This document shows, piece by piece, positions 39,396-63,585 of a stretch of DNA of 64,000 nucleotides. A program made the translations under genes and the position numbers. Under the pieces are notes generated by a model, which was not told the DNA's origin, made no database searches, and saw only the letters and a program-made list of their open reading frames with translations. Every line of letters begins with the position of its first letter. The first letter of the stretch is position 1. Source of the DNA: Christensenellaceae bacterium (GTDB taxonomy: Bacteria > Bacillota > Clostridia > Christensenellales > Christensenellaceae); the NCBI GenBank assembly GCA_022846035.1, contig AP025580.1:2480001-2544000 (forward strand), given 5' to 3'.

Positions 39396-40367
39396 ATGGA
39401 AGGAAAAGAATATGATATTGTTTCACTTGGCGAACTTTTGATGGACATGACGCCCTTTGGCACCTCTCCGGACGGCCAGCCTCTTTTTGAGATCAATCCG
39501 GGCGGCGCGGTGGCAAACGCCCTCGCCATGGCCGCCTCTTTGGGTTCTAAGTGTCTTCTGATGAGCAAAGTCGGTAATGATTCGTTCGGCCGTATGCTTC
39601 TTTCAGCGACTGAAAAGGCGGGGATCGACCCTTGCGGTATCCTCACCGATCCATACATTCCGACGACGCTGGCTCTTGTGAGCCTCGACGAAAACGGCGA
39701 GCGCGATTTTACCTTTTACCGCAAGCCGGGCGCGGACATCATGTACCGCCGCGACGAAGTTCTTCTCGACGCGGTCGCTCACTCCCATATCTTCCATTTC
39801 GGCACGCTTTCCTTAGTCGATGCGCCATGCAAGGAAGCAACTTTGGCCTGCGTGGAGCACGCACAAAAAAACGGATGCCTGGTTTCCTTTGATCCCAACA
39901 TCCGGATGTTTTTGTGGGAAGATAAAGACGCGCTGCACAGCGCGATTCATTATGGACTTGCGCATTGCAGTATCCTTAAAATATCCGACGATGAAATTCT
40001 GTATTATACAGGCGAAAACGAACTGCAAAGCGCCCTTTTAAAGCTGCGTTCTTCCTATCCGAACCTGCGGCTTATCTTCGTGACCTGCGGCGCGGACGGC
40101 TGCCTGATGCATCATGAAAACGAGTCTGTCCAGGTATCCGGATGCCGCCAGGAAAATATTGTCGATACGACCGGCGCCGGAGATTCTTTCATGGGTACCT
40201 GCCTGCATTATATTGTGAAAGCGGGACTTACCTCCCTCAATGCCGAAGCCCTCACGGACATCGTAAAGCGTGCCAATGCCGCCGCTTCTCTTGTGATCGG
40301 GCGCAAAGGCGCCTTTTCCAAAATGCCCTCCGAAAGCGAAATCATGCAGGCGCAAGGTCGCGTTTAG
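39396..40367 (+). CDS. PfkB-family carbohydrate kinase (fructokinase-like)
   Basis: 323 residues. N-terminal sugar-binding [13 protein letters not shown] and [20 protein letters not shown]/anion-hole and catalytic Asp in [11 protein letters not shown] near residue 256. This fits fructokinase/2-keto-3-deoxygluconate kinase-like members. 17 nt after the phosphoesterase. Its end overlaps the converging E1 beta gene by 4 nt and there is no visible terminator. A clear paralog starts at 63750. Confidence 0.9.
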
Positions 40368-41344
40368 TCGCCGATCAGCGCTTTCACCGCGCGCTTGATT
40401 TCCGCTACATCCGGCACCACATATTTTTCCAATTCGGGGTTATAGGGGATAGGCACGTCCTTTCCGCATAACCTCCTGATTGGCGCGTCCAAAAAATAGA
40501 ACGCTTCGCTGTCGCCGACCGCCGCGTAAATCTCCCCGCCGAAACCGCCTGTCTGGGCCGCCTCGTGCACGATCAATACCCTGCCTGTTTTTTTAGCGGA
40601 CCGTACCAGGGTTTCCACATCGAGCGGCACCAGCGTACGCGGATCCACGACCTCTACGTCGATCCCTTCCTCTGCCAGCTCGCCGGCGGCCTGCATGCAG
40701 GTATAGAGCATTCGCCCATAGGTAATCACAGTCACGTCGCGTCCGCTGCGTTTGACGTCCGCAACGCCGATCGGTACCGTATACTCCCCGTTGGGGATTT
40801 CCCCTTTCTGTTTATATAAAAGCTTGTTTTCCAAAAACACCACCGGATTATCATCGCGGATCGCCGACTTCAGCAGTCCTTTAAAATCGTATGGCGTAGC
40901 CGGCATAACCACCTTGAGGCCCGGCACGTGGCATACCCACGCCTCCAGGCTCTGGCTGTGCTGGGCCGCCGCGCCCGTTCCCGAACCGCCGGGAGCGCGC
41001 AGCACAAGCGGTACGCGCACCTGTCCCGCCAGCATATACCGCAGCTTGGCCGCCTGGTTTGCAAGCTGGTCCATCGCGATCGTGATAAAATCCGCAAACA
41101 TCAGTTCCGCGACCGGACGCATGCCTGCCATTGCCGCGCCTGTCGCCGCGCCCATGATCGCCGCTTCGGAAATCGGCGTATCCCGCACGCGCTCCGGACC
41201 GAATTCGTCGAGCATACCTACCGAAACACCAAAAGGCCCGCCGTATTTTCCAACGTCCTCACCCAACAGAAACACCCGTTCGTCCCGGCGCATTTCCTCC
41301 GACATCGCTTCCCTGATTGCCTGCAGGCATGTAACTTCCTTCAC
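40364..41344 (-). CDS. 2-oxoacid/acetoin dehydrogenase E1 component, beta subunit
   Basis: 326 residues, the usual E1 beta size. TPP/transketolase central domain ([15 protein letters not shown]) and C-terminal domain ([34 protein letters not shown]). GTG 41344 is taken as start: GAGGAA lies 6 nt upstream inside the 10-nt gap after the alpha gene, and [14 protein letters not shown] aligns with other E1 betas; an ATG at 41362 would overlap the alpha gene. No E2 or E3 gene follows, so the acceptor of the TPP-bound intermediate is unclear. Confidence 0.9.
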
Positions 41345-41354
41345 AGCGCTTTCC

Positions 41355-42311
41355 TCACACATAAATATAGTCCAGTATTTCGGAACGGTCAGGATACTCG
41401 CTTTTTTCCGCAAAAGCAACGGCATCCTCTATTTCCTGTGCCGCTTTTTCCTTGTTTTGTTCAATCTCCCTGGCAGTAAAGCCATTTTCAAGCATGCATT
41501 GCTCCATCCGCATAATCGGGTCCCTCTGCTTCCATTCGTCGATCTCTTCCCGCGTACGGTATACGTTGGCGTCGCTCTTCGAATGTCCCATATAACGGTA
41601 GGTGATACACTCAAGGAGAATCGGGCCGTTTTTTTTCACTTGTTCTACCGCTTTAAGCGTTTCTTCGTACACCAGCACCGCGTCGTTTCCGTCTATCGTT
41701 TTACCCGGCATGCCGTACCCCGCCGCCCTGTCGGAGATATGCCCCGCGCGCACGCTGTAGGAAACGGGCGTCGACACCGCGTACTGGTTGTTTTCGCATA
41801 CGAATAACACCGGAAGCTTCCAAACTGCCGCCAGGTTCAGCGATTCGTGGAAAGTCCCCGTATTGCTCGCGCCGTCGCCGAAAAAACATACGACGACGTT
41901 ATCCTTTTTTCGCATTCTAAGCGCCAGGGCGGCGCCCACGGCGATGGGCTGTCCGCCGCCTACCACGCCGTTTGCTCCAAGGTTCCCGCGCGAAATGTCG
42001 GCAATATGCATAGAGCCGCCCTTGCCCTTGCATGTTCCCGTCCTTTTTCCGAGCAGTTCGGCCATCATACCGTTTAAATCAATACCCTTGCTGATGCAGT
42101 GTCCGTGGCCCCTGTGCGTGCTTGTGATCAGGTCTTCTAAGTCCAGCGCGCTGCAAACTCCCGCGGCGACGGCTTCCTCTCCGATATACAGGTGCGTCGT
42201 ACCGTGTATTTTGCCCATGGAGAAAAAATACGCCACTTTTTCTTCGAACTTTCGGGTCAGTAACATTTTCATATGTATTTCGTTCAAAACTTGCTTGTTC
42301 GGCTGTGCCAA
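41355..42311 (-). CDS. 2-oxoacid/acetoin dehydrogenase E1 component, alpha subunit
   Basis: 318 residues. TPP motif [17 protein letters not shown]...CENN (the standard GDG-N~25-NN), [12 protein letters not shown] and [13 protein letters not shown] are characteristic of the acetoin/branched-chain E1 alpha group. The phosphorylation-loop region [19 protein letters not shown] is intact. TTG start at 42311 has GGAGG 7 nt before it. Lies directly after the iron alcohol dehydrogenase. Substrate could be acetoin, pyruvate or a polyol-derived 2-keto compound. Confidence 0.9.
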
Positions 42312-42334
42312 AATCCTACCTCCCTGCCGGTCCC

Positions 42335-43435: not shown

Positions 43436-43454
43436 GCTTTCGGTCCGTCCTTTC

Positions 43455-44969: not shown

Positions 44970-45000
44970 ATCGTCTCCTCTTCTTTTAAGGCTTACGTCC

Positions 45001-45032
45001 GGCAGGGAGAACGCTCCGGTTTTCCCCCTGCC
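45001..45032 (-). other. Intercistronic stem-loop between dehydrogenase and kinase genes
   Basis: GGCAGGG pairs with CCCTGCC across a loop of 18 nt, with extra pairing near the stem (GAA/TTC). There is no T tract on the minus strand, so it is more likely an mRNA stabiliser or attenuator than a terminator. Confidence 0.45.
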
Positions 45033-45063
45033 CCGCCATATATATATTTCTTAGAAAGAAAAT

Positions 45064-45837
45064 TTACTGAACCGTATACCCGCCGTCGATCAACAGGTTT
45101 TCACCGTTGATCATATTCGCCGCGTCGCTTGACAGGAACAGGATCGCCGCCGCGATTTCATCCGGATAGCAAAAACGCCCACACGGTATCTTTTTCTTCA
45201 TTTGCACCGCGTCGTCTCCCTGCCATATCTTTTCTCCCATCTCCGTGAGTACGACCGTAGGCGAAACTAGGTTGGCATTGATATTGTACTGCGCCCATTC
45301 CAGCGCCAGCGTCTTTACCATACCGATAAGCCCCGCTTTGCTCGCCGTATAAGCGACGTGCCTGTCCGTTGCGATCACGCCCCCCTGCGAGGCCACGCAG
45401 ATAATTTTTCCGCCGCCCAGCTCCATCATCGCGCGTCCGACCGCCTGGCACAGGAAAAACGGCGCTTTCAAGTTGACCAGCATCGTCTTATCCCACATTT
45501 CTTCCGTCATGCCGATCGCATAGTCCACCAGTCCTACGCCCGCCACACTTGCCAAAATATCGATCGTGCCAAAGCGTTCCAGCGTCTTGTCGACGATCAT
45601 CTGCCCCGACTTCATATCCGTCAGGTCGCATACGACCGGCAGGGTTTTTATTCCATATTGCCGCGCGATTTCGTCCGCAAATTCGGCGACGTCCGGATTC
45701 ATGTCGATGAGCACGATCTTAGCGCCGCTTTTCGCATACGCATGTACCGTCGCCTTTCCAATGCCGTTCGCCGCGCCCGTTACCAGCGCGACTTTATCCT
45801 TGATTGAAATCGTTCCGTCAAATGGTTTATAATTCAT
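45064..45837 (-). CDS. SDR-family polyol dehydrogenase (GolD/DthD type)
   Basis: 257 residues. Rossmann TGAANGIG near residue 20, catalytic Ser and YTASK (Tyr about 168, Lys about 172), and C-terminal LIDGGYTVQ. KDKVALVTGAANGIGKA and VSPTVVLTEMG closely resemble the GolD/DthD group, known to oxidise D-arabitol or D-threitol to the ketose with NAD. This is the likely first enzymatic step of the cluster. 36 nt after the ABC permease gene. Confidence 0.86.
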   Translation of the reverse strand: MNYKPFDGTISIKDKVALVTGAANGIGKATVHAYAKSGAKIVLIDMNPDVAEFADEIARQYGIKTLPVVCDLTDMKSGQMIVDKTLERFGTIDILASVAGVGLVDYAIGMTEEMWDKTMLVNLKAPFFLCQAVGRAMMELGGGKIICVASQGGVIATDRHVAYTASKAGLIGMVKTLALEWAQYNINANLVSPTVVLTEMGEKIWQGDDAVQMKKKIPCGRFCYPDEIAAAILFLSSDAANMINGENLLIDGGYTVQ

Positions 45838-45873
45838 GGATCACATCTCCTTTGCAAAACATCTCTGCCATAT

Positions 45874-46839
45874 TTATTTCTTAGTGCTGTTCGTAAAGTG
45901 GTCAAGCATGACTGCCAGTATGATCACAATACCTGTTGCAATCTGTTGGTAATACGACTGCACATTTAAAAGCGTCATGCCGTTTTTGAGCACTGCCAGA
46001 ATCAACGCGCCGAGCACCGTTCCGATTACACTCCCTTTGCCGCCCGCCAGGCTCGCGCCGCCGATGGCCGAAGCTGCGATCGCGTCCAGTTCGTATCCGG
46101 TTGCGGCGGTCGGTTCCGCCGCGCCCAGCCTGCCGACCATGACTACGGCGCCCAAAGCGCAGGCCAGTCCGCTGATCACATACGCCGTCATTTTATATTT
46201 GGTGACGTTGATACCGGATAGCTTCGCCGCTTCCACATTACCGCCGATAGCAAAAATGTATACGCCGATCTTTGTAAATTTAAGCAAACAATATACCAGC
46301 AGCACGATCGCGATCATAATAATTACCGGTACGGGAATAATGCCGATTTTTCCGCCGATAACCGATGTATACGAATCCGGCACGCCGGGTACCGGCTTTC
46401 CTGTCGTATAGACAAGGGCAAGACCGCGATAAATACTCATTGTTCCCAGCGTTACCAAAAAGGGCTGCAGGTTGAAAACCGAAATCAGCGAGCCGTTGAT
46501 CAGGCCCATCAATACGCCCAGCGCCAGCGCCGCCAAAACCGCCAGAAATGCGTTCGTTCCGTTTACCAGCATCTGGGCCAGGACCACGCCGCATACCGCC
46601 AGAATCGGCCCGACAGATAAATCGATACCGCCGGTGATGATGACGACAGTCATACCAAGGGCTACTATAATGTTGATAGACGCCTGCAGCACAACGCTGA
46701 TCAGGTTCCGCTCATTAAAGAAATGAGGTGAAATGATGGTGAAAAACACGCATATCGCCAGCAGGCACAGCAGTACGCCGCCTTGCCGCGCAAATTTTTT
46801 CCATCCGCTCTCTTTGATCGTATACCTCGTTGTTTCCAT
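45874..46839 (-). CDS. Sugar ABC transporter permease (RbsC type)
   Basis: 321 residues, 8-10 predicted membrane helices, with the family signature GGIDLSVGPILAVCGV, the EAA-like GGNVEAAKLSGINV and GASLAGGKGSVIGTVLGALI. Homodimeric permease of the CUT2 family. Starts 3 nt after the ATPase gene (GGAGGGG box). Imports the polyol or sugar delivered by the binding protein. Confidence 0.95.
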   Translation of the reverse strand: METTRYTIKESGWKKFARQGGVLLCLLAICVFFTIISPHFFNERNLISVVLQASINIIVALGMTVVIITGGIDLSVGPILAVCGVVLAQMLVNGTNAFLAVLAALALGVLMGLINGSLISVFNLQPFLVTLGTMSIYRGLALVYTTGKPVPGVPDSYTSVIGGKIGIIPVPVIIMIAIVLLVYCLLKFTKIGVYIFAIGGNVEAAKLSGINVTKYKMTAYVISGLACALGAVVMVGRLGAAEPTAATGYELDAIAASAIGGASLAGGKGSVIGTVLGALILAVLKNGMTLLNVQSYYQQIATGIVIILAVMLDHFTNSTKK

Positions 46840-46842
46840 CTC

Positions 46843-48345
46843 TTAAACCCCTCCCATTGCATATCTTAGTATTCTGACTTCGTCCGCCTCTTCGCGGTTT
46901 AAGTCCGCCGTTACCTTGCCTTCATGCATGACCAGTATCCTGTCGCTCATTCCCATGATCTCCGGCAGTTCGGACGATACCATGATAATGGAACTGCCGT
47001 TTTTGACAAACTCGTCCATCAGCCTGTATATCTCGCTTTTCGCACCGACGTCAAGGCCGCGCGTCGGTTCGTCAAAAATCAGAATTTGCGCATCCACGCT
47101 CATCCATTTCGCCAGCACCACCTTTTGCTGGTTGCCGCCGCTCAAATTGACCGTGTGCGTCTGCGGATTGGGCGGAGTGACTTTTAGCTCGTCAATAAAG
47201 CGTTCCGTGTTTCTCAGCATCGCCCCATGGCTTATCAGGCCGCACTTCATGGATTTATCAAGCGAACTCATATTGATGTTGTAATTATTGGATAACTCGC
47301 CCACAAAGCCTTGGGATTTCCGCTCCTCCGGCAGCAGCGCCAGCCCTTTCTCAATGGCCTGCTGGGGCGATTTGATTTTCACGTGTTCTCCGTTGATGTA
47401 TACTTCGCCGCTCGTCAGGGGATCGACCCCGAAGATGGCGCGCACGACTTCCGTCCGCCCCGCGCCTACCAGCCCCGCGATGCCCAGGATCTCCCCACGG
47501 TGAAGCTCGAAGCTGACATCCTCGAACACATCGTCCGAAGTCAAAGATTCCACCTTTAAGACGACTTCGTCCGTTGAAAAATTTTTGCTGTGATGCATAA
47601 ATTCCGTGACGTCGCGCCCGACCATCAGGCCGACCAGCGTCTGTTTGTCGATGTCTTTTACATCATGCGTTGAAATATACTGGCCGTCGCGCAGTACGGT
47701 AACCCTGTCCGCAATCTCAAAAATTTCTTCTAAGCGGTGGGATACATAAATGATCGACGTTCCGTTTTCTCTCAATCGCCGGATCGTTTTGAACAACTGG
47801 TCCGTCTCGCTTTTGGAAAGGCTGGCCGTCGGTTCGTCAAACGCGATTACCGACGAATTGTACATCAGTGTCCGCGCAATCGCCACCATCTGCATCTGGG
47901 CTACGCTTAAGTTTTTGACCGGCTCCTTGCTCGTGAAAGTGCATTCCAACTCTTTAAGCGTTTCGTCGCATTTTTTGTATAATTTCTTATGATCTATAAA
48001 CATATCAGCACGGTGCATCGGTTCGTTTCCAAGCAATACGTTTTGCCCGACCGTCAGCTCTTTTACCAGGTTTAATTCCTGATGCACCATGTTTATGCCA
48101 AGTTTACTTGCGCTGTTGGGATTTTTCACCCGGATATTCTGTCCGTTAAAGACGATGTCCCCGCTGTCAGGGTGGTATACACCCTTCAGGATATTCAGTA
48201 GTGTAGATTTTCCTGCGCCGTTTTCCCCCACAAGGGCGTGTACTTCTCCTTTTCTGATCGAGAAATCCACGTCCATCAGCGCCTTGACGCCGGGAAAAGT
48301 TTTGGTAATTTTGTTGAAGTGTAAAATATCTTCATATGCAGCCAC
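46843..48345 (-). CDS. Sugar ABC transporter ATPase (RbsA/MglA type)
   Basis: 500 residues with two tandem ATPase domains. NBD1: Walker A GENGAGKST, Walker B VIAFDEPTASL; NBD2: degenerate Walker A VGAGRTE, LSGGNQQKVV, Walker B ILIFDEPTRGLDVG. GTG start at 48345 follows AAGGAGG by 8 nt. Powers the CUT2 permease at 45874. Confidence 0.95.
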   Translation of the reverse strand: MAAYEDILHFNKITKTFPGVKALMDVDFSIRKGEVHALVGENGAGKSTLLNILKGVYHPDSGDIVFNGQNIRVKNPNSASKLGINMVHQELNLVKELTVGQNVLLGNEPMHRADMFIDHKKLYKKCDETLKELECTFTSKEPVKNLSVAQMQMVAIARTLMYNSSVIAFDEPTASLSKSETDQLFKTIRRLRENGTSIIYVSHRLEEIFEIADRVTVLRDGQYISTHDVKDIDKQTLVGLMVGRDVTEFMHHSKNFSTDEVVLKVESLTSDDVFEDVSFELHRGEILGIAGLVGAGRTEVVRAIFGVDPLTSGEVYINGEHVKIKSPQQAIEKGLALLPEERKSQGFVGELSNNYNINMSSLDKSMKCGLISHGAMLRNTERFIDELKVTPPNPQTHTVNLSGGNQQKVVLAKWMSVDAQILIFDEPTRGLDVGAKSEIYRLMDEFVKNGSSIIMVSSELPEIMGMSDRILVMHEGKVTADLNREEADEVRILRYAMGGV

Positions 48346-48379
48346 GTTTCCTGCCTCCTTACTTGATTGTTTTGGATGG

Positions 48380-48453
48380 ACGGGAGCCCTGCCGCCGTCA
48401 GGCTTCGGGCCCCGTTCCCATCTCTGTTTCAGGCAGACCCCTTAAGGGGGTTC
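48380..48453 (-). other. Intercistronic stem-loops between binding protein and ATPase genes
   Basis: A GC-rich hairpin (ACGGG...CCCGT outer stem, inner AGCCTG/CAGGGCT, 48380-48415) and a perfect palindrome CCCCTTAAGGGG (48438-48449) lie in the 119-nt gap. They have no T tract. Such structures often protect the abundant binding-protein mRNA and reduce downstream expression. Confidence 0.55.
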
Positions 48454-48464
48454 AGATCTTTTCC

Positions 48465-49607
48465 TTACGCTGCCGGTGCAGCTACATGTTCCGTATAATT
48501 GTTGATGTCAAGAACAAGCTGCGGTACTTCTACGACTCTCGGAATATCCTGTCCCGCCAGCAGCCGCAGGGCCACTTCGCCGTTCAGTTTTCCGCCGACA
48601 TACAGGTTGAGGTCAACCGTAGCCGTAAGATCGCCCGCTGCGATCGAATCGATCGCGCCTTCAATACCATCCGAACCGACGACCGCTACTTTGCCGAGCT
48701 TACCGGCTTCTTTCACAGCTTCGATCGCGCCCAGCGCCATCGTATCGTTGTTGCAGTAGATACCTACGAGGTCGGGATACTGGTTCAAAAGGTCGGTCGC
48801 TACGTCCATTGCTTTCTGGCGATCCCAGTCGGCGGGCGTGCTCGCAACGACTTCCATGTCAGGATACTCCGCGATACCTTCCTTAAAACCAGCCGTTCTC
48901 TGGATTGCCGCATAAGCGCCGGCCAATCCTTCGATACAAGCTACCTGGCCTTTTTCGCCCGCAAACTCCGCGATGTAGTCCGCCGCCAGTTTGCCGGTGT
49001 CAATGGAGATGTTGCCGACAAAGCTCTTCGCGTCATTGATCTGCGCATCGAAAAGGTTCACCACCAAAATGCCGGATTCGTTCGCCTGTTTTACAGCCGC
49101 GTCCAGCGTCGTGTTGGACTGCGGCGCTAAAAGCAATGCGTCATACCCCTTGGACAGCATGGATTCCGTCATCGCCAGCTGCTCTACGCTGTCCGATTCA
49201 CTCTTGGGAGCCTGCAGGTCCACTGTGACGCCGAGGGGTTCCACATAATCTTTCACGCCCTGAGAAATCGAGGTCCAGGACTCGTTTGCCAGCGTCTTTA
49301 CGACAACGCCCATCGAGATGTTTGCAAAATCCAGGTCCAAATCCTCGATCGGTCCGAATTTTGCTTCGAGCTGGTCACCGGAAATAGAGTCTTCGCAATA
49401 GTCCGCGTCAAACATTTCTGTCTGCGCTGCAGCCGACTCAGATTCTTCGGCTGGTTTGCTTTCCTGCTGAGTCGCCTCGGCTGGTTTGCTTTCCTGGGCC
49501 GCAGACTCGGAAGTCGCCGCCGAGCTTTCTGCCGCAGGCTGCGCGCTGCATGCAACCATCGCAAAAACCAGTGTCAAGCAAAGTAAAACTACCAGAACTT
49601 TTTTCAT
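48465..49607 (-). CDS. Sugar ABC transporter substrate-binding lipoprotein (CUT2/RbsB type)
   Basis: 380 residues. Lipoprotein signal KKVLVVLLCLTLVFAMVAC (lipobox MVAC), a low-complexity linker with QESKPAE repeats (about 25-60), then a type I periplasmic-binding fold: LLLAPQSNTTLDAAVKQ, GNISIDTGKLAADYI, IYCNNDTMALGAIEAV, VVGSDGIEGAIDSI. ATG 49607 has GGAGG at 8 nt. First gene of the importer; the two-component system lies just upstream, 96 nt away, and probably senses the same substrate. Confidence 0.95.
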   Translation of the reverse strand: MKKVLVVLLCLTLVFAMVACSAQPAAESSAATSESAAQESKPAEATQQESKPAEESESAAAQTEMFDADYCEDSISGDQLEAKFGPIEDLDLDFANISMGVVVKTLANESWTSISQGVKDYVEPLGVTVDLQAPKSESDSVEQLAMTESMLSKGYDALLLAPQSNTTLDAAVKQANESGILVVNLFDAQINDAKSFVGNISIDTGKLAADYIAEFAGEKGQVACIEGLAGAYAAIQRTAGFKEGIAEYPDMEVVASTPADWDRQKAMDVATDLLNQYPDLVGIYCNNDTMALGAIEAVKEAGKLGKVAVVGSDGIEGAIDSIAAGDLTATVDLNLYVGGKLNGEVALRLLAGQDIPRVVEVPQLVLDINNYTEHVAAPAA

Positions 49608-49739
49608 ACAAAAAACCTCCATCAATTTGTTTTTTTGCGTCATACCCGGTTGTTGATTTTATTGTAAATTTGAGCAAAATAGAAAACAACGTGACGATAT
49701 TCTTATTGGTGGTACAAAATTCGCTTTTTGAAAAAATGG

Positions 49740-54518: not shown

Positions 54519-55307
54519 TCAATATGAAATCAGGCTGTAAAGCGGTTCTTGCAAACGATGCGCAACGCCGCATAAAAAGCGGGCCGCCTGCGTATCGTCC
54601 ATCTTCCCTCGGTCAAAGCCAAGGCTTAAACAAAGCATTTTTTTGTAACCGGCTGTTCCCTGCGCAATTTCTTCCACCATGCCGATCCCGAGCGCCGCGC
54701 TGCTTCCGGCACATACCTCGGGCGCCAGCCCCGTGATCTCAAAACTACTCAGATCACAGACGGTGAATACAGGGGCTTTACGGACCGTGGGGAAAGGCTG
54801 CCCGTCCGCCCGCCCTGTTTGCAGGTCTTCCACCAGTCCGGTAATTTTTCCCAGAGACAGTTTATCAAGATTCCCTATCACCCGCATAGGCCGTTTCTTC
54901 CCGTCCCGCGCAGGCAAAATAACGCCGACATCCAGATCGCGGCCGCTATTCGCAACCTCTTGCCGAAAGACAGCCGCCACGGCTTGGAGCACAAAAACGC
55001 TGAGCGGTATTTCTATCCCCGCCTGCCGCGTGATTTCCGCGCTTATTTCAAGGAGGGCGCCCACGTCCGCCCTTGCTTGCAGCATGCCAATGGATGGCGG
55101 AACCGCTATGCCGGCAGCATTCCTCTGCCGCCCGACCGCCTGCAAAACATCCTGTTTTTTCACCTGTCCGGCCATGCCCGTAGGCGTTATGCAGGCAAGG
55201 ATAATACCGTTTTCCCGCGCAAGCTTCCTTGCGACCGGCGTTGCGGCGATTCCGGGCCGGTGCCTTTTCTTCCTGTCGCAATCCGCCGCGTCTGTTTTGT
55301 ATCCCAT
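54519..55307 (-). CDS. E2-like 2-oxoacid dehydrogenase acyltransferase domain protein, degenerate and lipoyl-free
   Basis: 262 residues. Residues 20-58 (ATPVARKLARENGI, GQVKKQDVLQAV) are the peripheral-subunit-binding domain of E2 proteins, and 70-250 are the E2 catalytic (chloramphenicol acetyltransferase-like) domain, recognisable from LDVGVILPARDGK and the ending AARFLCGVAHRLQEP. There is no lipoyl domain. In place of FDHRVVDG the protein has FDRGKMDD (231-238): the catalytic His is Arg and the Gly is Asp. Acyl transfer by the usual route is therefore unlikely. It follows the glycyl radical activase by 24 nt. Confidence 0.85.
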   Translation of the reverse strand: MGYKTDAADCDRKKRHRPGIAATPVARKLARENGIILACITPTGMAGQVKKQDVLQAVGRQRNAAGIAVPPSIGMLQARADVGALLEISAEITRQAGIEIPLSVFVLQAVAAVFRQEVANSGRDLDVGVILPARDGKKRPMRVIGNLDKLSLGKITGLVEDLQTGRADGQPFPTVRKAPVFTVCDLSSFEITGLAPEVCAGSSAALGIGMVEEIAQGTAGYKKMLCLSLGFDRGKMDDTQAARFLCGVAHRLQEPLYSLISY

Positions 55308-55331
55308 TGTCAGCGCCCCTCTCCTATTTCT

Positions 55332-56273
55332 TTATCCGCCAATCGTTACCTCAAATCCCTTATCTTCAAAAAACCGCCTGATATACTCCATCCGTCCAGG
55401 CTCCGGCGGCAGTATATCCCCCGGCGGATACCGCCTGTTAAGCCTTTTGTATTTACCCATGCCCAGCCTGTGATATGGCAAAAGGTCTATCCTCCTTACG
55501 CTTGGCGCCTGTTTTTCCAGAAAATCGCGCGTCATATGGAAATTGTCCATGCTGTCGTTATATCCCGGGACCACCGGTATCCGGACGACGATTTCCTGTC
55601 CCTCTGCGGCCAGTCTTTTCAGGTTTTCAAGGATCGTCCGGTTGTCCGCACCCATCTGTTTGCTGTGTATTTGGGGATCCATCTGTTTTAAGTCATATAA
55701 AACCAGATCTATATCCCTGGCCGCGCGTTCCACTTTCGCCCACGGTGCGCATCCGCTCGTTTCCAGGCATGTGGATATTCCCTTTTCCTTACACTGCTTT
55801 GCCGCCCGCGCCACAAATTCAGCCTGCGTCAACGCCTCGCCGCCTGAAAATGTCACGCCGCCGCCCGAGGCCTCATAATACGAAAAATCTTTCATGACCT
55901 CGCCTACCACCTCAGAGATGCTCATCCATTTTCCCGCCATGGCCAGCGCCTCCGTCGGACAGGCGAGAGTGCATGCCCCGCAGCTTTTGCATTTATCCCT
56001 ATCGATTACGATTCCCGTTTTTCCCAGCTCCAGCGCATGACAGGGGCAGCTTTTCAGGCAATCCCCGCAGCCGACGCACCGCTCCTGCCAGTACCAAAGT
56101 TCGGAAACCGCGTCCTGAGATTCCGGATTTGCGCACCACAGGCAGCGCAATGGACATCCCTTTAAAAAGATCACCGTGCGGATTCCCGGCCCGTCGTGCA
56201 GCGCATAACGCTCTATTTCAAAAACATTTCCTTTGATTTCTTTTCCGTCCACGCTCTCCGCCTTATAACACAT
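55332..56273 (-). CDS. Glycyl radical enzyme activating protein (radical SAM)
   Basis: 313 residues. Radical SAM motif CPLRCLWC (Cys40, 44, 47), followed by two ferredoxin-type clusters (CVGCGDCLKSC; CKSCGACTLAC) inserted as in other GRE activases, then SGGEAL, ETSG and VVPGYND. It makes the glycyl radical on the enzyme encoded just upstream. ATG 56273 lies inside the end of that gene (11-nt overlap); GTG seven codons later is an alternative because its ribosome binding site is better. Confidence 0.92.
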   Translation of the reverse strand: MCYKAESVDGKEIKGNVFEIERYALHDGPGIRTVIFLKGCPLRCLWCANPESQDAVSELWYWQERCVGCGDCLKSCPCHALELGKTGIVIDRDKCKSCGACTLACPTEALAMAGKWMSISEVVGEVMKDFSYYEASGGGVTFSGGEALTQAEFVARAAKQCKEKGISTCLETSGCAPWAKVERAARDIDLVLYDLKQMDPQIHSKQMGADNRTILENLKRLAAEGQEIVVRIPVVPGYNDSMDNFHMTRDFLEKQAPSVRRIDLLPYHRLGMGKYKRLNRRYPPGDILPPEPGRMEYIRRFFEDKGFEVTIGG

Positions 56274-58680
56274 GTTCCGTACGCTCGATAATATCATCCT
56301 GCGTCGCAGGCTCAAGACTGTTGAACAGGGCGCTGTATCCCGCGACCCTTACCACAAGGTCCGTATACTCCTCTGGCTTTTTCTGCGCCTCGCGCATCAT
56401 TTCGGAAGACACCACGTTAAACTGAATATGCCAGCCCATTTTTTTGAAAAACGCCTTGATGAGCGAAGCTACTTTCTTAAGCCCCTCATCCGTTGCCATC
56501 ATCTCCGGCGTGATCTTAATGTTCAAAAGATTTCCGCCCGTGATCAGCATGTTAGGCATCTTGGCGACGGAATTCAATACGGCTGTCGGCCCGAGCGTAT
56601 CCGTTCCATGGTATGGCGAGCATCCTTCTGCCAGCGCCTCTCCCGCACATCTGCCGTCCGCGCTTGCTCCTACCTTAATGCCGCTCGGTACGTTTCCGGA
56701 TATGGTTGCGGTGCACGGATAACTGAAGCAGCCGATCGGTCCCCGCCCAAAACGCGTATTCCTGTATTTTTCAAGTTCGCGGATAAACATACGGTACAGT
56801 TTATCTGCCAGCAGGTCGACAGCGTCGTCGTCATTTCCGAATTTAGGCGCTTTATGGATCAGTATCTGCCGGATACGCGGTCCGTCCTCGCAGTCAAAAT
56901 TTGCCGCCAATACTTCCAGCAGCTTTTTTCCATCTATCCTGTGTTCTTCAAACACCAGCCTGCGGATCGCCGCGAGGCTGTTGGCCGCATTGGTAATGCC
57001 CGTCTCCGGTCCGGTCGTCATATCGTATACCGCGCCCCCCTCTTTGGGCGTTTTCCCGCGACGGATACAGTCCTGTACGAGCCCCGAGCAAAACGCATCC
57101 GGCACTAACTCTTCAATCGCATAATCGATTACGTGCTCGCCCACAAAGCGCAGCTTTACATAGTATTCCATCTGGCGCTCAAGCGCCTGCCAAAGATCGC
57201 CGAAGTCCTGATACGAGGCCAAATCCTTTTCCTCTGGTAAAAGCGCGATTCCGGTGCGGGGGTCTTTCCCGCCGTTTAATGTAATTTCCAAAATTTTGGG
57301 AAAGTTCGTAAAGCTCATGCCCGCCGCGCGGTATCCGTATTTGCCCGGCACGATGGGTTCGATACAGCCCACCATCGCATAGTTGTTGGCGTCCGCTTCC
57401 GCGATTCCCCTGCTTTTAAGCGACGGGATCATCAACGCGTCGTTGTGCATCGCCGGCATACCGAAACCAAGTTTAATTACCTCCGCGCACTTCAATAGGT
57501 ATTCCTCAGGATTTTTTTCATGGTAGCGCGCCGATACGTTGGGCTGGGGCAACTGTGTCAACGAGACACTGTCTAGGCATAACATGGTCAACTCGTTGAC
57601 TGCGTCCCGTCCGTCCGGCGTAATCCCGCCCAGTGTAAGGTTTTGGTATGTGGGACCGCCGCCTGAAAAACGCGTGTGCGACCACGGGCGGATTTTGATA
57701 ATCCCAAAAGCCTTTACCCACAAACAGCCGAGCAGCTCGGCCGCCTCTTCCCGCGTAAGCCTGCCTTGTGCAATATCCTCCTGATAGAGCCCATACAGGT
57801 ATTGATCCAGTCTTCCAAAGGACATTGAGTGGCCGTTGCTTTCAATCTGTGAAATCAGGTGGGCAAACCACACCGACTGTACGCCCTCGTAAAACGTTTC
57901 CGCCGGATATTCCGGCGAACGACTGCACACCGCCGCTATTTTTTCAAGTTCCGCTTTCCTCCGCGGGTCTGTTTCTTTTAAGGCCAGTTCCTCCGCAAGC
58001 CTTGCATACCGGCGCGCAAAGTTTACTACCCCTTCATAGGCGGTAGTTACCGCTTCATAAAATATCCTTTTATGAAATGCCGCAGGGTCCGCCTCATCCA
58101 GCTTCTCCATTTCCTTGCGCACATCGTCCAGTATCCCCCGCACGCCGCACTGTACGATTTTTTCGAAATCGAGCATGATGTGCCCGTCTCCGGACGTCAT
58201 GTTTCCGTTGGCCGAAAAAACGCCCATCTCGTAGGTATCCCTGACTTCCTGTGGCAATGTTTTTATGGCACGGTCTTCCACCGTCTTGCCGCGCCACCAC
58301 CGCGCGATCTCGAGCAATTCCTCGCGTACCTTGGGCGATACCTTAAAACGGTCTCCCGGGCGCTTGGGCAGCTCGTCGATCTCTTCAAAAATCCAGTTGA
58401 TATTATATTCCGGAAAAATAGCCGCCGCGCACTGCTTGCCCGCCTGATGTCCGGCGATGAGCTGGCCGTTTTCAATAAAAACAGTCATGTTTTCAAGTAT
58501 ATTTTTGAGCGCCTTTGCCCTGCGCAGAATCATCGGCATATCCTGTGTCTGCCGGTATGCCTGTGTTAAGTAACGCGCGCGCTGCACGCACACTTCCTGT
58601 TCGATCATCAGCGCATCTTTCTTGAGCCTGGCAATTCTTTCCTTTTGCCTTTCCGATAAATCCGGACTGGTATACTGCAT
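56263..58680 (-). CDS. Glycyl radical enzyme (dehydratase/lyase, PflD family)
   Basis: 805 residues. Active site GCIEP with Cys439 and Glu441, and the glycyl radical motif RVAGYSALFNSL with Gly781. The single Cys with Glu two residues on separates it from pyruvate formate-lyase (Cys-Cys) and places it with the dehydratase, decarboxylase and C-N/C-S/C-O lyase group. It does not show a diagnostic substrate set I can name, so the substrate is open. AAGGAGG box. First gene of the operon, own promoter. Confidence 0.92.
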   Translation of the reverse strand: MQYTSPDLSERQKERIARLKKDALMIEQEVCVQRARYLTQAYRQTQDMPMILRRAKALKNILENMTVFIENGQLIAGHQAGKQCAAAIFPEYNINWIFEEIDELPKRPGDRFKVSPKVREELLEIARWWRGKTVEDRAIKTLPQEVRDTYEMGVFSANGNMTSGDGHIMLDFEKIVQCGVRGILDDVRKEMEKLDEADPAAFHKRIFYEAVTTAYEGVVNFARRYARLAEELALKETDPRRKAELEKIAAVCSRSPEYPAETFYEGVQSVWFAHLISQIESNGHSMSFGRLDQYLYGLYQEDIAQGRLTREEAAELLGCLWVKAFGIIKIRPWSHTRFSGGGPTYQNLTLGGITPDGRDAVNELTMLCLDSVSLTQLPQPNVSARYHEKNPEEYLLKCAEVIKLGFGMPAMHNDALMIPSLKSRGIAEADANNYAMVGCIEPIVPGKYGYRAAGMSFTNFPKILEITLNGGKDPRTGIALLPEEKDLASYQDFGDLWQALERQMEYYVKLRFVGEHVIDYAIEELVPDAFCSGLVQDCIRRGKTPKEGGAVYDMTTGPETGITNAANSLAAIRRLVFEEHRIDGKKLLEVLAANFDCEDGPRIRQILIHKAPKFGNDDDAVDLLADKLYRMFIRELEKYRNTRFGRGPIGCFSYPCTATISGNVPSGIKVGASADGRCAGEALAEGCSPYHGTDTLGPTAVLNSVAKMPNMLITGGNLLNIKITPEMMATDEGLKKVASLIKAFFKKMGWHIQFNVVSSEMMREAQKKPEEYTDLVVRVAGYSALFNSLEPATQDDIIERTEHVL

Positions 58681-58979: not shown

Positions 58980-59924
58980 CTATTTTAAAAGTTCCTCGGC
59001 CGTATTGGAATCCGTGACCAGCACGTCGATCCAGCGCCCGAGCATGGCCGCTTTGATCACCTTGACCTTGTTTTCGCCAAGCGCAATGCCCACCACATGC
59101 CGCGCGTCCGTGCAAATCTGCTCCAGCTCCGCCGCAACGATCCTGTCATTGACGCTGTGGCTCAGAATCCTGCCGTTTTTGTCCACAAAACGCATGGCCA
59201 GATCGCCGACCGCGCCCTCTTCTTCCAGCTTATTGACCTCTTCTTCCGTCACGTATCCGCTGTCAAGAAGGGTAGAGTTCCATAACGATCCGATACTCAA
59301 AAGGACGATGTCCGACTTTTCCCCCGCCTGCACCGCATCTGCGATCATCGGATCCTTTAAGAAAATATCCCGTTCTTCCCTGCTGCCCGTTAAGGCCGGC
59401 GCATGCAAAAGAATGCACTGCGCTTCCAGGGCGTTGGCAATTTTACCGGCAATCTGGTTGCTGAGGATTTCCGGATTTTTCCCAAAACCGCCAACCAGCG
59501 AAACCACGGTAACGTCCGGATGGCGCAACGGAATAAACTCGTCGGCAACTGCCGCCAGGGTCTTTCCCCAATATACGCCCAGCGTATCGTTAGGGCGGAT
59601 AGCCGAAATCAGGTAATGCGCCGCCGCGCGGCCAAGGTCTTTTAAGCTGCTTTGCGGGTCCGTACTGCGGATAACCGTCGCCTTTTTGATCCCGTAACGT
59701 TCGCACAACGCTTCCTCGACCTGCACAATACCGGCGGAGGGAGACATCACCTCGATACGCACGATACCCATTTCTTCGGCGCGCTTGAGCATTTTCGATA
59801 CCCACGGCCTCGTAACGCCCATACGGTTTGCTACCTCTTCCTGGGACAGGCCGTACGTATAGTAAAGCTCCGCTGCAAGAACGATCTTATGATAAATTGT
59901 CCTGTTCTTCCTACCTGTCTCCAT
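58980..59924 (-). CDS. SorC/DeoR-family sugar-responsive transcriptional regulator
   Basis: 314 residues: N-terminal HTH (LYYTYGLSQEEVANRMGVTRPWVSKML) and a sugar-phosphate-binding domain with SLVGGFGKNPE, APALTGSREERD and GEKSDIVLLSIGSLW. ATG 59924 is chosen: AAGGA lies 7 nt upstream, the length is standard, and the frame's earlier ATG at 59999 falls inside the -10 box of the promoter. Between the two operons it probably controls; the effector would be a pathway sugar phosphate. Confidence 0.9.
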   Translation of the reverse strand: METGRKNRTIYHKIVLAAELYYTYGLSQEEVANRMGVTRPWVSKMLKRAEEMGIVRIEVMSPSAGIVQVEEALCERYGIKKATVIRSTDPQSSLKDLGRAAAHYLISAIRPNDTLGVYWGKTLAAVADEFIPLRHPDVTVVSLVGGFGKNPEILSNQIAGKIANALEAQCILLHAPALTGSREERDIFLKDPMIADAVQAGEKSDIVLLSIGSLWNSTLLDSGYVTEEEVNKLEEEGAVGDLAMRFVDKNGRILSHSVNDRIVAAELEQICTDARHVVGIALGENKVKVIKAAMLGRWIDVLVTDSNTAEELLK

Positions 59925-59997
59925 CGGTTCATCCTTTTGGGGCGCGTTTTTCACCGCCGTTTCCCCCGTGCTGATATGTCTTGTGTTTCTGCGTTTC

Positions 59998-60026
59998 ATT
60001 ATACCCGAATCCTTACTAAAATACAA
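59998..60026 (-). promoter_or_regulatory. Promoter of the SorC-family gene
   Basis: Minus strand TTGTAT (60021-60026), 17 nt, TATAAT (59998-60003). The transcript would start near 59990, downstream of the ATG at 59999, which rules that ATG out as translation start from this promoter. Confidence 0.7.
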
Positions 60027-60100: not shown

Positions 60101-61018
60101 TCACAGTTTGACCGCGCAGAAATACGCCGTTATCAGGTCGTTTTCATAATTGAACAATTGGTACTCCATCCCTTTGGGAATAAAAAGCGCTTCCTGATCG
60201 CCGATCTGGTAGGATTCCCGCGTTTCCGTCATGAATACGCTCAGCGTTCCCTTGTGGATATAGTAAACGGCGTCGCCCTCGTGCCTGCACGGCTCGGACA
60301 TGCGCGCGCCTTTGCCTCCCGTCGGAATCACAACCTCCGCAACCTGCATAAAATCGTTACTGACCACGAACTTCATCAAAAGCGGGTTCTCCTGTCCGTT
60401 GATAACCATCAGCTTCTTGCTTTCCGGAATGTAATGGAACATTTGCGGATATTCGCGCGCGGTCGGGCCATCCACCGGCCATGCTCCAAGATCCGAGATA
60501 TTGCCCATGTAATTGGTGCCCGGATATTTTGCAAAGTTGTCGAACTCTTTCTTTCCCTTTGCATTGAGCACATTGTAGGTACCGATCGTATCCGTGGGAA
60601 ATTCCTGCTCCGCAAAAATCTTCGGCGCCAGCACCGCCATCGTCCTCACCTTTTCCTGCGTGAAATTATAGCCTACGTGCACTGCGCCCATCGGCATTAA
60701 CAGCCCCTCGCCGGCGTGTACGTCCACGACCTGTCCCGATACGGTATTGAGCATCGTGAGTTTTCCCTCGAGCACAATGTAAACCTCGTCGCCCGCATGG
60801 TAATCCGGCGGTTCAAACCGTCCGCCCGGCGAAATATCATAGGTCGTACAGGTAATCTCGTTGGTGCTCAGGTAGACAAAGCTAATATCGCTGTAATCCA
60901 TGCCGAGGTCAGGCGTCGGATAGATAAACGGCGCAACCATGTCGCGCGTAATATGGATGGGCTTATCGCGCGGTTCTTCCGTATAGGGATGGTTTTGAAA
61001 GGTACATTTGGCTATCAT
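60101..61018 (-). CDS. Bicupin protein, probable sugar-related enzyme
   Basis: 305 residues with two cupin domains. Cupin 1 (about 60-130): HAGDEVYIVLEGKLTML, then LLMPMGAVHVG; cupin 2 (about 210-300): HEGDAVYYIHKGTLSVFM, then FIPKGMEYQL. First and second motif His/Glu residues look able to hold a metal, though the usual pattern HxH is reduced to HxxD. No known bicupin family could be assigned. Last gene of the hexulose-phosphate operon, so it may isomerise or bind a sugar or sugar phosphate. Confidence 0.78.
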   Translation of the reverse strand: MIAKCTFQNHPYTEEPRDKPIHITRDMVAPFIYPTPDLGMDYSDISFVYLSTNEITCTTYDISPGGRFEPPDYHAGDEVYIVLEGKLTMLNTVSGQVVDVHAGEGLLMPMGAVHVGYNFTQEKVRTMAVLAPKIFAEQEFPTDTIGTYNVLNAKGKKEFDNFAKYPGTNYMGNISDLGAWPVDGPTAREYPQMFHYIPESKKLMVINGQENPLLMKFVVSNDFMQVAEVVIPTGGKGARMSEPCRHEGDAVYYIHKGTLSVFMTETRESYQIGDQEALFIPKGMEYQLFNYENDLITAYFCAVKL

Positions 61019-61055
61019 AATACTCTCCTCCTTGATTTTAAAACGGATTTCCTGT

Positions 61056-61622
61056 TTATTCCAGGTTTGCGTGGCAACGCCACAATTCTTCCATTTTTAT
61101 ATTGTTTTGTTCAATAATCATTTTCGCAGCCGTGTCTCCCAATAAAAGCAGGCATTGTTCAAACAGGCTTGTCATCGGTTGTATGGACTGCGTTTCATCC
61201 GGCAGATACAGCTTCGTGCGGGCAGGAATGCGTACCGCCACGTCCGCCAGTTTTGCCATTGTGCTTTGGGGATTGGCGCCAATATATACGATCTTCGCGC
61301 CGAAGCCCTTTGCTTTCCTGGCCATGGCGACCGGAATCATAGATTCCCCGCTGCCCGAGCCGACTACCAGCGTATCCTTGTCCGTAATTGCAGGCTCCGT
61401 GATCTGCCCCACGCAGTATGTCGCGATGCCAAGGTGGGCAAGCCGTTTGGCGATGGCCTCAAGCGACAGCATTACTCTTCCCACGCCGGTAAAAAAAACT
61501 TTCTGTGAAGAAAGCAGCGTTTCGATAAACGCCTGCACCTCCTCCGGCCTGACTTTTAAAAGCGTATCCTTACATTCTCCTGTGATACCCCTTACGGTAT
61601 CTTCATACGATACTTGTCCCAT
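61056..61622 (-). CDS. SIS-domain 6-phospho-3-hexuloisomerase-like protein, second copy
   Basis: 188 residues. SIS fold with FFTGVGRVMLSLEAIAKRL, VGSGSGESMIP and the family ending CHANLE. Closest in form to PHI (HxlB), which turns 3-hexulose-6-P into fructose-6-P. ATG 61622 is 8 nt after AAGGAGG; an ATG two codons earlier lies too close to it. It is a distinct paralog of the SIS gene at 62386 in the same operon. Confidence 0.85.
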   Translation of the reverse strand: MGQVSYEDTVRGITGECKDTLLKVRPEEVQAFIETLLSSQKVFFTGVGRVMLSLEAIAKRLAHLGIATYCVGQITEPAITDKDTLVVGSGSGESMIPVAMARKAKGFGAKIVYIGANPQSTMAKLADVAVRIPARTKLYLPDETQSIQPMTSLFEQCLLLLGDTAAKMIIEQNNIKMEELWRCHANLE

Positions 61623-61637
61623 AGTCATTGCCTCCTT

Positions 61638-62372
61638 TTATCCGCGCGCCTGAAGTCCTTGCCCGATCAGCTTTTGCAGTCGGTCAAAATTCGTTTTTAC
61701 ATCGCCGCCCCTGCTGAAAATACTGGACGTTCCGGCAACCACCGTATCAAGGCCCGCGCATACCTGTTCTTCCACGTTTTCAAAGTAAACCCTACCGTCG
61801 ACGGTGATCGTCGTATCAAGTCCGCGCCGGACGATCGTCTCGCTTAAGTCGTACATTTTCCGTGTCACAAAATCATATTGATCTGCGCCGGGCATAGACG
61901 CGTAACCCGGGTTAATGCGCATCAGCAATACAAAGTCGCAAAGCTCCAAGGCATATTCGATCGTTCCTATCGGTGTTGCCGGCGTAAGCGCCACGCCCGC
62001 CTTAAGGCCTGCGGTCCTGATCTGCGAAAGCTTTTTGCAGATATGCCGTTCCGTTTCCACATGAAAACAGATGCGTTCCGCCCCGATACCAACCATCTCG
62101 TCCACGAAAAAATCATTTTGCATTGCCATGATGTGTACATCATACGTAAGGGATGTTTTTTCCTTTAACTGTTTGACCGTATCCACGCCAATGGGCATGC
62201 TTGGGCTGAAATACCCGTCGAGAATATCGACGTGCAGCATTTTGCAACCGGCCCGTTCCAAAACCTTTACTCCCTGTTCCAGGTTGCACAAGTCCATGCA
62301 GATCAGCGACGGGGAAACAGCCGCGACGTCCGCAGGCTTTCTGGATGTCACCAGAGAAATATTTTCATTCAT
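61638..62372 (-). CDS. Ribulose-phosphate 3-epimerase-like protein
   Basis: 244 residues, TIM barrel of the Rpe family: VSPSLICMDLCNLEQ, MLHVDILDGYF, DVHIMAMQN, and MRINPGYA in place of the usual VNPGFGGQ. The conserved DGR near the end (VDGRVYFENV) replaces DGG. These changes suggest a non-standard ketose phosphate substrate, as in allulose-6-P epimerases. AAGGAG box; 13 nt after the first PHI gene. Confidence 0.83.
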   Translation of the reverse strand: MNENISLVTSRKPADVAAVSPSLICMDLCNLEQGVKVLERAGCKMLHVDILDGYFSPSMPIGVDTVKQLKEKTSLTYDVHIMAMQNDFFVDEMVGIGAERICFHVETERHICKKLSQIRTAGLKAGVALTPATPIGTIEYALELCDFVLLMRINPGYASMPGADQYDFVTRKMYDLSETIVRRGLDTTITVDGRVYFENVEEQVCAGLDTVVAGTSSIFSRGGDVKTNFDRLQKLIGQGLQARG

Positions 62373-62385
62373 TTGTCCCCGCTCC

Positions 62386-62940
62386 TTATTCCAGATTTGC
62401 GTGCAGGCGGAACATAATTTCCGAGGTCGTATTGTTTATTTCCATCAACCGCAGGACCACATAGTCAAGATACAAAAGCACGCTTTGTTCAAACAGTGAC
62501 CCCATCGGCTGTATGGATTCAATATTCGCTTTTTGATCGGATTTTGCCGTGGGGGCACTGATCCTTATCACCACGTCCGCCAGCCGTCCGATCGTCGCCT
62601 CCGGAAAAATCGTAACGGTTGCCAGCCGCGCGCCGATTTCCTTACATTTTTTGGCCATCGAAACAAGGCTTCCCGTCTCTCCAGAGCCACTGGCGATCAG
62701 GAGCAGGTCGCCTTTTTCAATGGAGGGCGTCACGATCTCCCCCACCACGAATACCTTTTTTCCCATATGCATCAAACGCATGGCAAAACAGTTTACCATC
62801 AGGCCGCTGCGGCCCCTTCCCGCAATAAAAATACGTTTCGCCTGTTGTATGCAATCCACGAGCTGCACAGTCTGCTCTTCCTTGATACTGCCCAGCGTTG
62901 CTTCCAGTTCCTTTGTGATCGTCAAAATATCCGCGCTCAT
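62386..62940 (-). CDS. hxlB: 6-phospho-3-hexuloisomerase
   Basis: 184 residues, SIS domain with FIAGRGRSGLMVNCFAMRLMHMG, IASGSGETGS and IESIQPMGSLFEQ, ending RLHANLE. These are standard PHI features. Together with the hexulose-phosphate synthase it converts ribulose-5-P plus formaldehyde to fructose-6-P or runs the reverse. GGGGAG box. 15 nt after the synthase. Confidence 0.88.
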   Translation of the reverse strand: MSADILTITKELEATLGSIKEEQTVQLVDCIQQAKRIFIAGRGRSGLMVNCFAMRLMHMGKKVFVVGEIVTPSIEKGDLLLIASGSGETGSLVSMAKKCKEIGARLATVTIFPEATIGRLADVVIRISAPTAKSDQKANIESIQPMGSLFEQSVLLYLDYVVLRLMEINNTTSEIMFRLHANLE

Positions 62941-62955
62941 ATTCCGCTCCCCCCG

Positions 62956-63585
62956 TTAGTTCATTTTTTCGCGGATCAGCTTGGCCTTCGCCGTCCGGTC
63001 GCCCTGCGTCATGATGCCCTCGCCCACAATGATGACCTCCGGCTCCAGCCGTACATAAGCGTCCACGCTCTCCGCCGTGATTCCGCCCGCAAGCGCGATC
63101 TTGCTGGATTTGATATGCTTTTGTATCTTTCCGAAATGCTCGTCCATGCTCATACCCGGACGCTGCAGGTCCTTTGAGGTATGCAGGCAGATATAGTGTA
63201 CGCCCATTTCCTCCAACCGCTCGATACGCGCTTCAAGGTCCTTTACCGCCAGCAGGTCCGCCATGATTGCTTTTTCGTAAGCGTTTGCGCAATCCACGGC
63301 GGCCTTGATAGTCGCGTCCTCCGTCGCGGCCATAACCGTAACAATATCCGCGCCCGCCGCAAAGGCAACACCCGCTTCATATTGCCCCGCGTCCATAATT
63401 TTCAGGTCCGCCAACACCTCGTGCTGCGGATATTTTTCCTTAATCTGCGTAACGATAGGCAGGCCGCATTCCATAAGAAGCGGCGTACCCATTTCGATGA
63501 TGTCCACATATTCGGCGACTTCTTCCAAAATCTTGCTGGTTTTATCCAAATTCTCGCAAAAATCCATTGCCAATTGAAGTTTCAT
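62956..63585 (-). CDS. hxlA: 3-hexulose-6-phosphate synthase (or 3-keto-L-gulonate-6-P decarboxylase family)
   Basis: 209 residues, OMP decarboxylase-like barrel. MKLQLAMDF at the start and VLADLKIMDAG (catalytic DxKxxD) followed by GADIVTVMAATEDATI agree best with HPS; 3-keto-L-gulonate-6-P decarboxylases of the same superfamily share the DxKxxD, so the choice rests on the adjacent PHI gene. First gene of its operon behind a consensus promoter. If HPS, it condenses formaldehyde with ribulose-5-P. Confidence 0.86.
   Translation of the reverse strand: MKLQLAMDFCENLDKTSKILEEVAEYVDIIEMGTPLLMECGLPIVTQIKEKYPQHEVLADLKIMDAGQYEAGVAFAAGADIVTVMAATEDATIKAAVDCANAYEKAIMADLLAVKDLEARIERLEEMGVHYICLHTSKDLQRPGMSMDEHFGKIQKHIKSSKIALAGGITAESVDAYVRLEPEVIIVGEGIMTQGDRTAKAKLIREKMN

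Follow-up and report, generated by a model that had tools for sequence, protein, structure and literature searches.

An eroded E2-like protein in a glycyl radical enzyme operon of a Christensenellaceae bacterium, possibly kept as a docking subunit

In a 64,000-nucleotide stretch of a Christensenellaceae genome (hereafter the window, positions 2480001-2544000 of a 2.77 Mb genome in a single contig), three genes in one operon encode a glycyl radical enzyme (GRE), the activase of this enzyme and a relative of E2 acyltransferases with 262 residues, which we call E2L (54519..55307; this and the other window features whose coordinates are written with two dots are on the minus strand). By its sequence, E2L is a diverged copy of an E2 from a pyruvate/acetoin-dehydrogenase-like complex. 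We tentatively propose, with a confidence a little short of even, that it is a lineage-specific E2 which has lost its catalytic activity and is retained as a docking subunit, most likely for the E1 pair encoded at 40-42 kb of the window or for an E3. A first-pass annotation of the window had described the three genes, with Cys439 and Gly781 in the GRE, and the open reading frames (ORFs) and Pfam matches confirm that they are real.

The likely docking role suggested in that annotation is backed by a conserved peripheral-subunit-binding domain (PSBD) set against an eroded acyltransferase (CAT) domain. The PSBD, at residues 20-57 (55137..55250), matches Pfam E3_binding at 6.6e-10 with 39.5 bits, near the low end of the four other E2s having a single PSBD stretch (39.3, 40.8, 44.8 and 61.5 bits); three E2s with two stretches score 54.5-80.1 bits. 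Compared with 31 other PSBD segments, it has a mean identity of 0.406, which exceeds the values of 25 of them; with one best segment per protein, for 25 E2s, the value becomes 0.411 (higher than 18 of the 25). The pattern used to find the segments favours typical PSBDs. The mean identity of the CAT domain, at residues 67-262 (54522..55109), is only 0.229, the lowest when set against all 28 other E2s. The CAT comparison omits three of the 31 E2s, which have no helix motif; PSBD segments are lacking for these three and for three more in which the PSBD pattern did not match. With Pfam 2-oxoacid_dh the CAT domain scores 37.1 bits and covers positions 112-228 of the 232 of the profile, versus 239.1-298.8 bits in seven other scanned E2s. 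E2L keeps 16 of the 47 columns that are conserved in at least 80% of the 28 other E2s and has gaps in 6, while those E2s keep a median of 94% and a minimum of 78% of them.

The alignments locate the damage. E2L has neither the N-terminal RKxIAxxMxxS segment nor the NxS hairpin, PIINxP has become PEVCAG, and Cys occupies the Ser/Thr column of FTxSNLG, the residue of which we take to be catalytic. The earlier claim of a full E2 catalytic fold is therefore too strong, since the segment and the hairpin are missing and so few conserved columns are kept. The reported loss of the catalytic His stands: FDRGKMDD replaces FDHRxxDG at residues 231-238 (54594..54617), with Arg233 in place of the His of DHRxxDG and Gly234 in place of the Arg. 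The DHR triplet is present in 31 of 34 listed E2-like ORFs (30 by pattern and L108 by eye), the other three being two N-terminal pieces and L103, with a seemingly unrelated C-terminus. Several E2 genes appear to be split or to carry an unrelated tail (L103:221-1333, L106:10267-11287, L108:7477-8199 and L074:9832-11036), through either decay or assembly errors. E2L presumably can no longer pass acyl groups to coenzyme A (CoA). Its alignment with a profile of 13 E2s (hhalign) has a probability of 99.2 and E=1.5e-19 over residues 18-260. This recognisable homology up to residue 260 and the Cys in the Ser/Thr column would suit a protein that still does chemistry or binds CoA or acyl groups by other residues, for example an acyl-CoA sensor, but the loss of both His and Arg, the altered PIINxP and the lost N-terminal helix make this very improbable.

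As the first-pass annotation had stated, E2L keeps the PSBD and has no lipoyl domain; Pfam gave no lipoyl match in E2L, and the 10 Biotin_lipoyl matches in this genome all lie outside the window. Among the features expected of an E2 acyltransferase, then, E2L has the PSBD and lacks the catalytic His, the full CAT domain with its RKxIAxxM helix, and a lipoyl domain either on the E2 itself or on an E3 of the same operon. We rejected the loss of the lipoyl domain as a surprising feature, because E2s without this domain are ordinary in the genus. Six operons (L064 of this genome; L065, L068, L073, L075 and L077 of relatives) combine the two E1 genes (alpha and beta) with a short E2 (313-320 aa) and an E3 (575-582 aa). 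All six short E2s keep the His, the two that were scanned have no lipoyl domain by Pfam, and the one scanned E3 of the 575-582 aa type has a lipoyl domain at its N-terminus.

Searches for orthologs of E2L were negative in 60 relatives (38.8 bits for the best match other than E2L itself), in 396 sampled genomes of the order (where the top score, 59.9 bits, belongs to an ordinary E2 that has a lipoyl domain and the motif YDHRSIDG), and in 391 genomes sampled from the class and 398 from the phylum. The three larger samples overlap, and the own genome was counted in each; in these searches and in some of the searches of GRE relatives, only part of the initial candidates was scored in some genomes. 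An exact-peptide scan of genome contigs for E2L was also empty, with a reach limited to close kin, as the same method, applied to the GRE, missed its relatives of 70-71% identity (genomes G004 and G009). Plasmid matches to E2L came from 16 records, all under 60% identity; the eight listed have 21.7-25.8% identity and are annotated as E2 in seven cases and as hypothetical in one. Phage records gave no match. E2L might instead have been acquired by transfer from an unsampled, divergent E2-like family of another phylum, where it would have a function of its own. The long branch and the lack of close kin in the phylum samples would fit such an origin, and other phyla were covered by the exact-peptide scan alone. 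The empty contig scan, the low identity of the plasmid matches and the absence of phage matches speak against it, and we give it little credence.

The position of E2L as the third gene of the operon, 24 bases past the activase stop, would be natural for a dedicated accessory subunit or sensor of the GRE. The GRE (56263..58680, 805 aa) has the thiyl Cys439, the C-terminal glycyl motif with Gly781 and the paired activase of the PFL2/dehydratase group, with Pfam scores of 706 bits for PFL-like and 117 bits for Gly_radical. The activase (55332..56273), a radical SAM protein (Radical_SAM 62.6 bits), has CxxxCxxC at residue 54 of the listed ORF, which begins with TTG at 56315; translation more likely starts at the ATG at 56273, which overlaps the stop codon of the GRE. 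The best-scoring solved relatives of the GRE are structures of YbiW (PDB 8id7 and 8yjn, 719 bits), with 6xs4 closely behind. Its closest relatives are in G009 (71%), G004 (70%) and a Spirochaetes metagenome-assembled genome (63%), and seven more with 45-52% identity were inspected. None of the 10 shows an E2-like gene nearby (phmmer or tblastn, E up to 1e-3) in the 11-20 kb inspected, some of these stretches being ended by contig ends. We therefore rejected E2L as a conserved GRE partner: no ortholog was found in the searched genomes, and no E2-like gene was detected beside the 10 GRE relatives. Nor is the conserved role with the GRE considered in the first-pass annotation supported. Four distant GREs (35-43%) do share their stretch with E2s, but these belong to complete E1-E2-E3 operons (L065, L068, L070 and L077) and keep the His. 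Moreover, we know of no GRE subunit resembling E2, and we consider a dedicated GRE subunit improbable.

By raw count, a GRE was present in the stretch of these four loci and on the contig of one more (L098) among the 32 non-window E1 rows. Near-identical E1-E2-E3 operons with short E2s occur both with a GRE in the stretch (L065) and without one (L064). Several of the five GRE-bearing stretches or contigs also have SorC regulators and FGGY kinases. We may speculate that in such loci a complex dependent on thiamine diphosphate (ThDP) cleaves a deoxy-ketose phosphate in acetoin-dehydrogenase fashion after radical dehydration. In G009, an E1 pair lies about 9.4 kb from the GRE relative on the same contig, which ends about 50 bases past the pair, and a relative (258 bits) of the SorC/DeoR-type regulator encoded upstream of the window GRE (58980..60026) lies about 2.7 kb from the GRE relative. 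The number of GRE matches per genome (E up to 1e-100) varies within the genus, with 7 in the window genome, 14 in G004, 8 in G005, 3 in G001, 1 in G003 and 0 in G002.

Without a conserved neighbourhood with the GRE, the first-pass annotation had expected a decaying gene. The neighbourhood is indeed not conserved; plain decay does not follow, as a drift simulation and the state of the PSBD speak against it. The frame of E2L is intact, and the ribosome-site-like sequence AGGAGAGG lies 10 bases 5' of its ATG. Codon use is coding-like, with a score of 0.364 per codon in frame and at most 0.08 in the other five frames; this is low yet inside the range (0.332-0.696) of the 16 genes of the window on which the codon table was trained. 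In the simulation, the last 230 codons of four real E2 genes underwent neutral substitution, indels being ignored. Frames stayed open in 0-2 of 1000 runs at 30% or 25% identity, in 2-6 of 1000 at 40% and in 3-20 of 1000 at 50%. Since neutral drift to the divergence of E2L almost never leaves an open frame, E2L was probably maintained as a protein for most of its history and while most of its divergence arose. The simulation is still compatible with a recent loss of function. A gene that decays after a period as a divergent E2, its function having been lost fairly recently, would explain the lack of orthologs and of E2L-type genes beside the closest GRE relatives, the branch of E2L being the longest of the E2 tree, the deletions in the CAT domain and the lowish codon score. 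With a PSBD as conserved as other PSBDs, we consider decay unlikely, though by no means negligible.

As for the partner of a docking protein, the first-pass annotation had pointed to the E1 pair at 40-42 kb, and it remains the best candidate. E1 alpha (41355..42311) has an intact ThDP motif; E1 beta (40364..41389) probably has its true start near 41362. The pair is 64-65% identical to that at 559-561 kb of the same genome and falls into a clade with L067, L084, L098, L066 and L063 (97% SH-aLRT). In the E2 tree (31 E2s, bacterial only, with L103 and ORFs of 300 aa or less left out), the rows nearest to E2L by path are L087, L066, L063 and L084, with unsure placement. The E1 pair and E2L are placed by these trees near one E2/E1 subfamily, in the case of E2L only weakly. 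The genome has five E1-beta loci (E up to 1e-60) and five PSBD proteins; four of them match within 3 kb, which leaves the window E1 pair and E2L over. The E2-E3 genes at 561-565 kb were considered as genes in need of the window E1 pair and were rejected, having E1 genes of their own.

Several points weigh against a maintained docking subunit. No ortholog was found that would attest to conservation across species. The place of E2L in the tree is unsure, with an end branch of 3.64 and no starred set, and its codon score is below that of 15 of the 16 table-training genes. A distance of 12 kb separates E2L from the E1 pair. In four other genomes of the genus, E1 pairs (L100, L101, L102 and L104) have no E2 or E3 in the 18 kb inspected, and PSBD searches of six relatives, including these four genomes, found no E2L-like protein, so that an E2L need not accompany E1 genes that lack an E2. 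All but two of the PSBD matches in the six relatives are in frames of 320-550 aa, as in ordinary or short E2s; the two others are weak and in frames of 134-136 aa. An E2L-like partner for every E2-less E1 pair is thus not borne out. By eye, the same kind of gene lies upstream of the L100 and L101 pairs, and the pairs of L100-L102 precede the same downstream genes.

In the docking role that we propose, the PSBD of E2L would hold E1, E3 or both. The candidate E1 alpha/beta pair, on the same strand as E2L and some 12 kb downstream of it, has no E2 or E3 nearby. The CAT remnant may serve as an anchor, by binding to other copies of itself or by joining the core of one of the genome's four other E1/E2 systems. 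The place of E2L in the GRE operon points to shared regulation with a region for sugar or polyol catabolism, and it would be co-expressed with that region instead of working directly on the GRE. Genes of this kind in the region encode a GolD/DthD-family dehydrogenase, an FGGY kinase, an iron alcohol dehydrogenase, the E1 pair, a hexuloisomerase and an epimerase. The dehydrogenase, kinase, alcohol dehydrogenase and E1 genes form a same-strand run with ABC sugar transporter genes (40364-49643), which resembles a polyol route whose last enzyme would be a ThDP enzyme with no E2 or E3. Upstream of the GRE (60101-63585), cupin-type and hexulose-phosphate-synthase-like proteins (both named by eye), a 6-phospho-3-hexuloisomerase (HxlB) and a ribulose-phosphate-epimerase-like protein make up a ribulose-monophosphate-like or rare-sugar set.

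A more specific proposal, which we regard as distinctly doubtful, is that E2L is an independent bacterial counterpart of the E3-binding protein (E3BP, or protein X), in which a lipoyl-less dead E2 docks an E2-less E1 pair or an E3 and is co-expressed with a YbiW-type GRE because both serve one route. According to PMC12441222, which cites Ma et al., YbiW converts 1,5-anhydroglucitol-6-phosphate to 1-deoxyfructose-6-phosphate. The window GRE would likewise make a 1-deoxy-ketose phosphate, an acetoin-like hydroxyketone, which the ThDP-dependent E1 would then split, releasing an acetyl unit and leaving a shorter sugar phosphate; a product of the 1-deoxyfructose-6-phosphate type is a plausible substrate for an acetoin-dehydrogenase-like E1. 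Such a pathway would connect radical sugar dehydration with ThDP-dependent acetyl release. If the docking role is true, it would mean E3BP-like evolution outside eukaryotes and provide a testable partner model for E1 pairs lacking E2 and E3, such as the four others found in the genus; if E2L is decaying instead, it is an ordinary relic. To our knowledge, no inactive E2 paralogue is known as a docking protein in bacteria, and among the paper titles listed in searches, several of them on ubiquitin, none announced one.

Compared with known systems, L063 (an E1-E1-E2-E3 operon at 559-565 kb of the same genome) and L066 (in G004) have E2s in which, as in E2L, a PSBD is followed by a CAT domain; they are among the nearest to E2L by tree path and among its best phmmer scores (69-70 bits). 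Unlike E2L, they carry a lipoyl domain of their own and two PSBD stretches, keep the His in FDHRCVDG and have a complete CAT domain. The six short E2s resemble E2L in having a PSBD and a CAT domain and no room for a lipoyl domain, but they keep the His (DHRHxDG), are encoded directly with the E1 pair and the 575-582 aa E3, and have a full CAT domain in both that were scanned. YbiW-type GREs are the best-scoring solved relatives of the window GRE; the substrate and product given above are those reported for YbiW itself (PMC12441222). Finally, the E3BP/protein X of eukaryotic pyruvate dehydrogenase complexes is, according to PMC7494870 and PMC8146983, E2-related and inactive with the PSBD kept, and the former describes protein X as an E2 variant without catalytic activity which recruits E3 and which lacks the lipoyl domain in some fungal sequences. 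Protein X chain 8ohs_C matches E2L weakly (E=0.0054), scoring below bacterial E2 chains. E2L, with its putative E3 binding, differs in being bacterial, in its N-terminally truncated CAT domain and in having no lipoyl domain, which only some fungal protein X sequences lack. The likeness is that E2L, too, is by its sequence an E2 relative that has lost active-site residues and kept its PSBD, and by this analogy it may work like E3BP/protein X, with no membership of that family implied.

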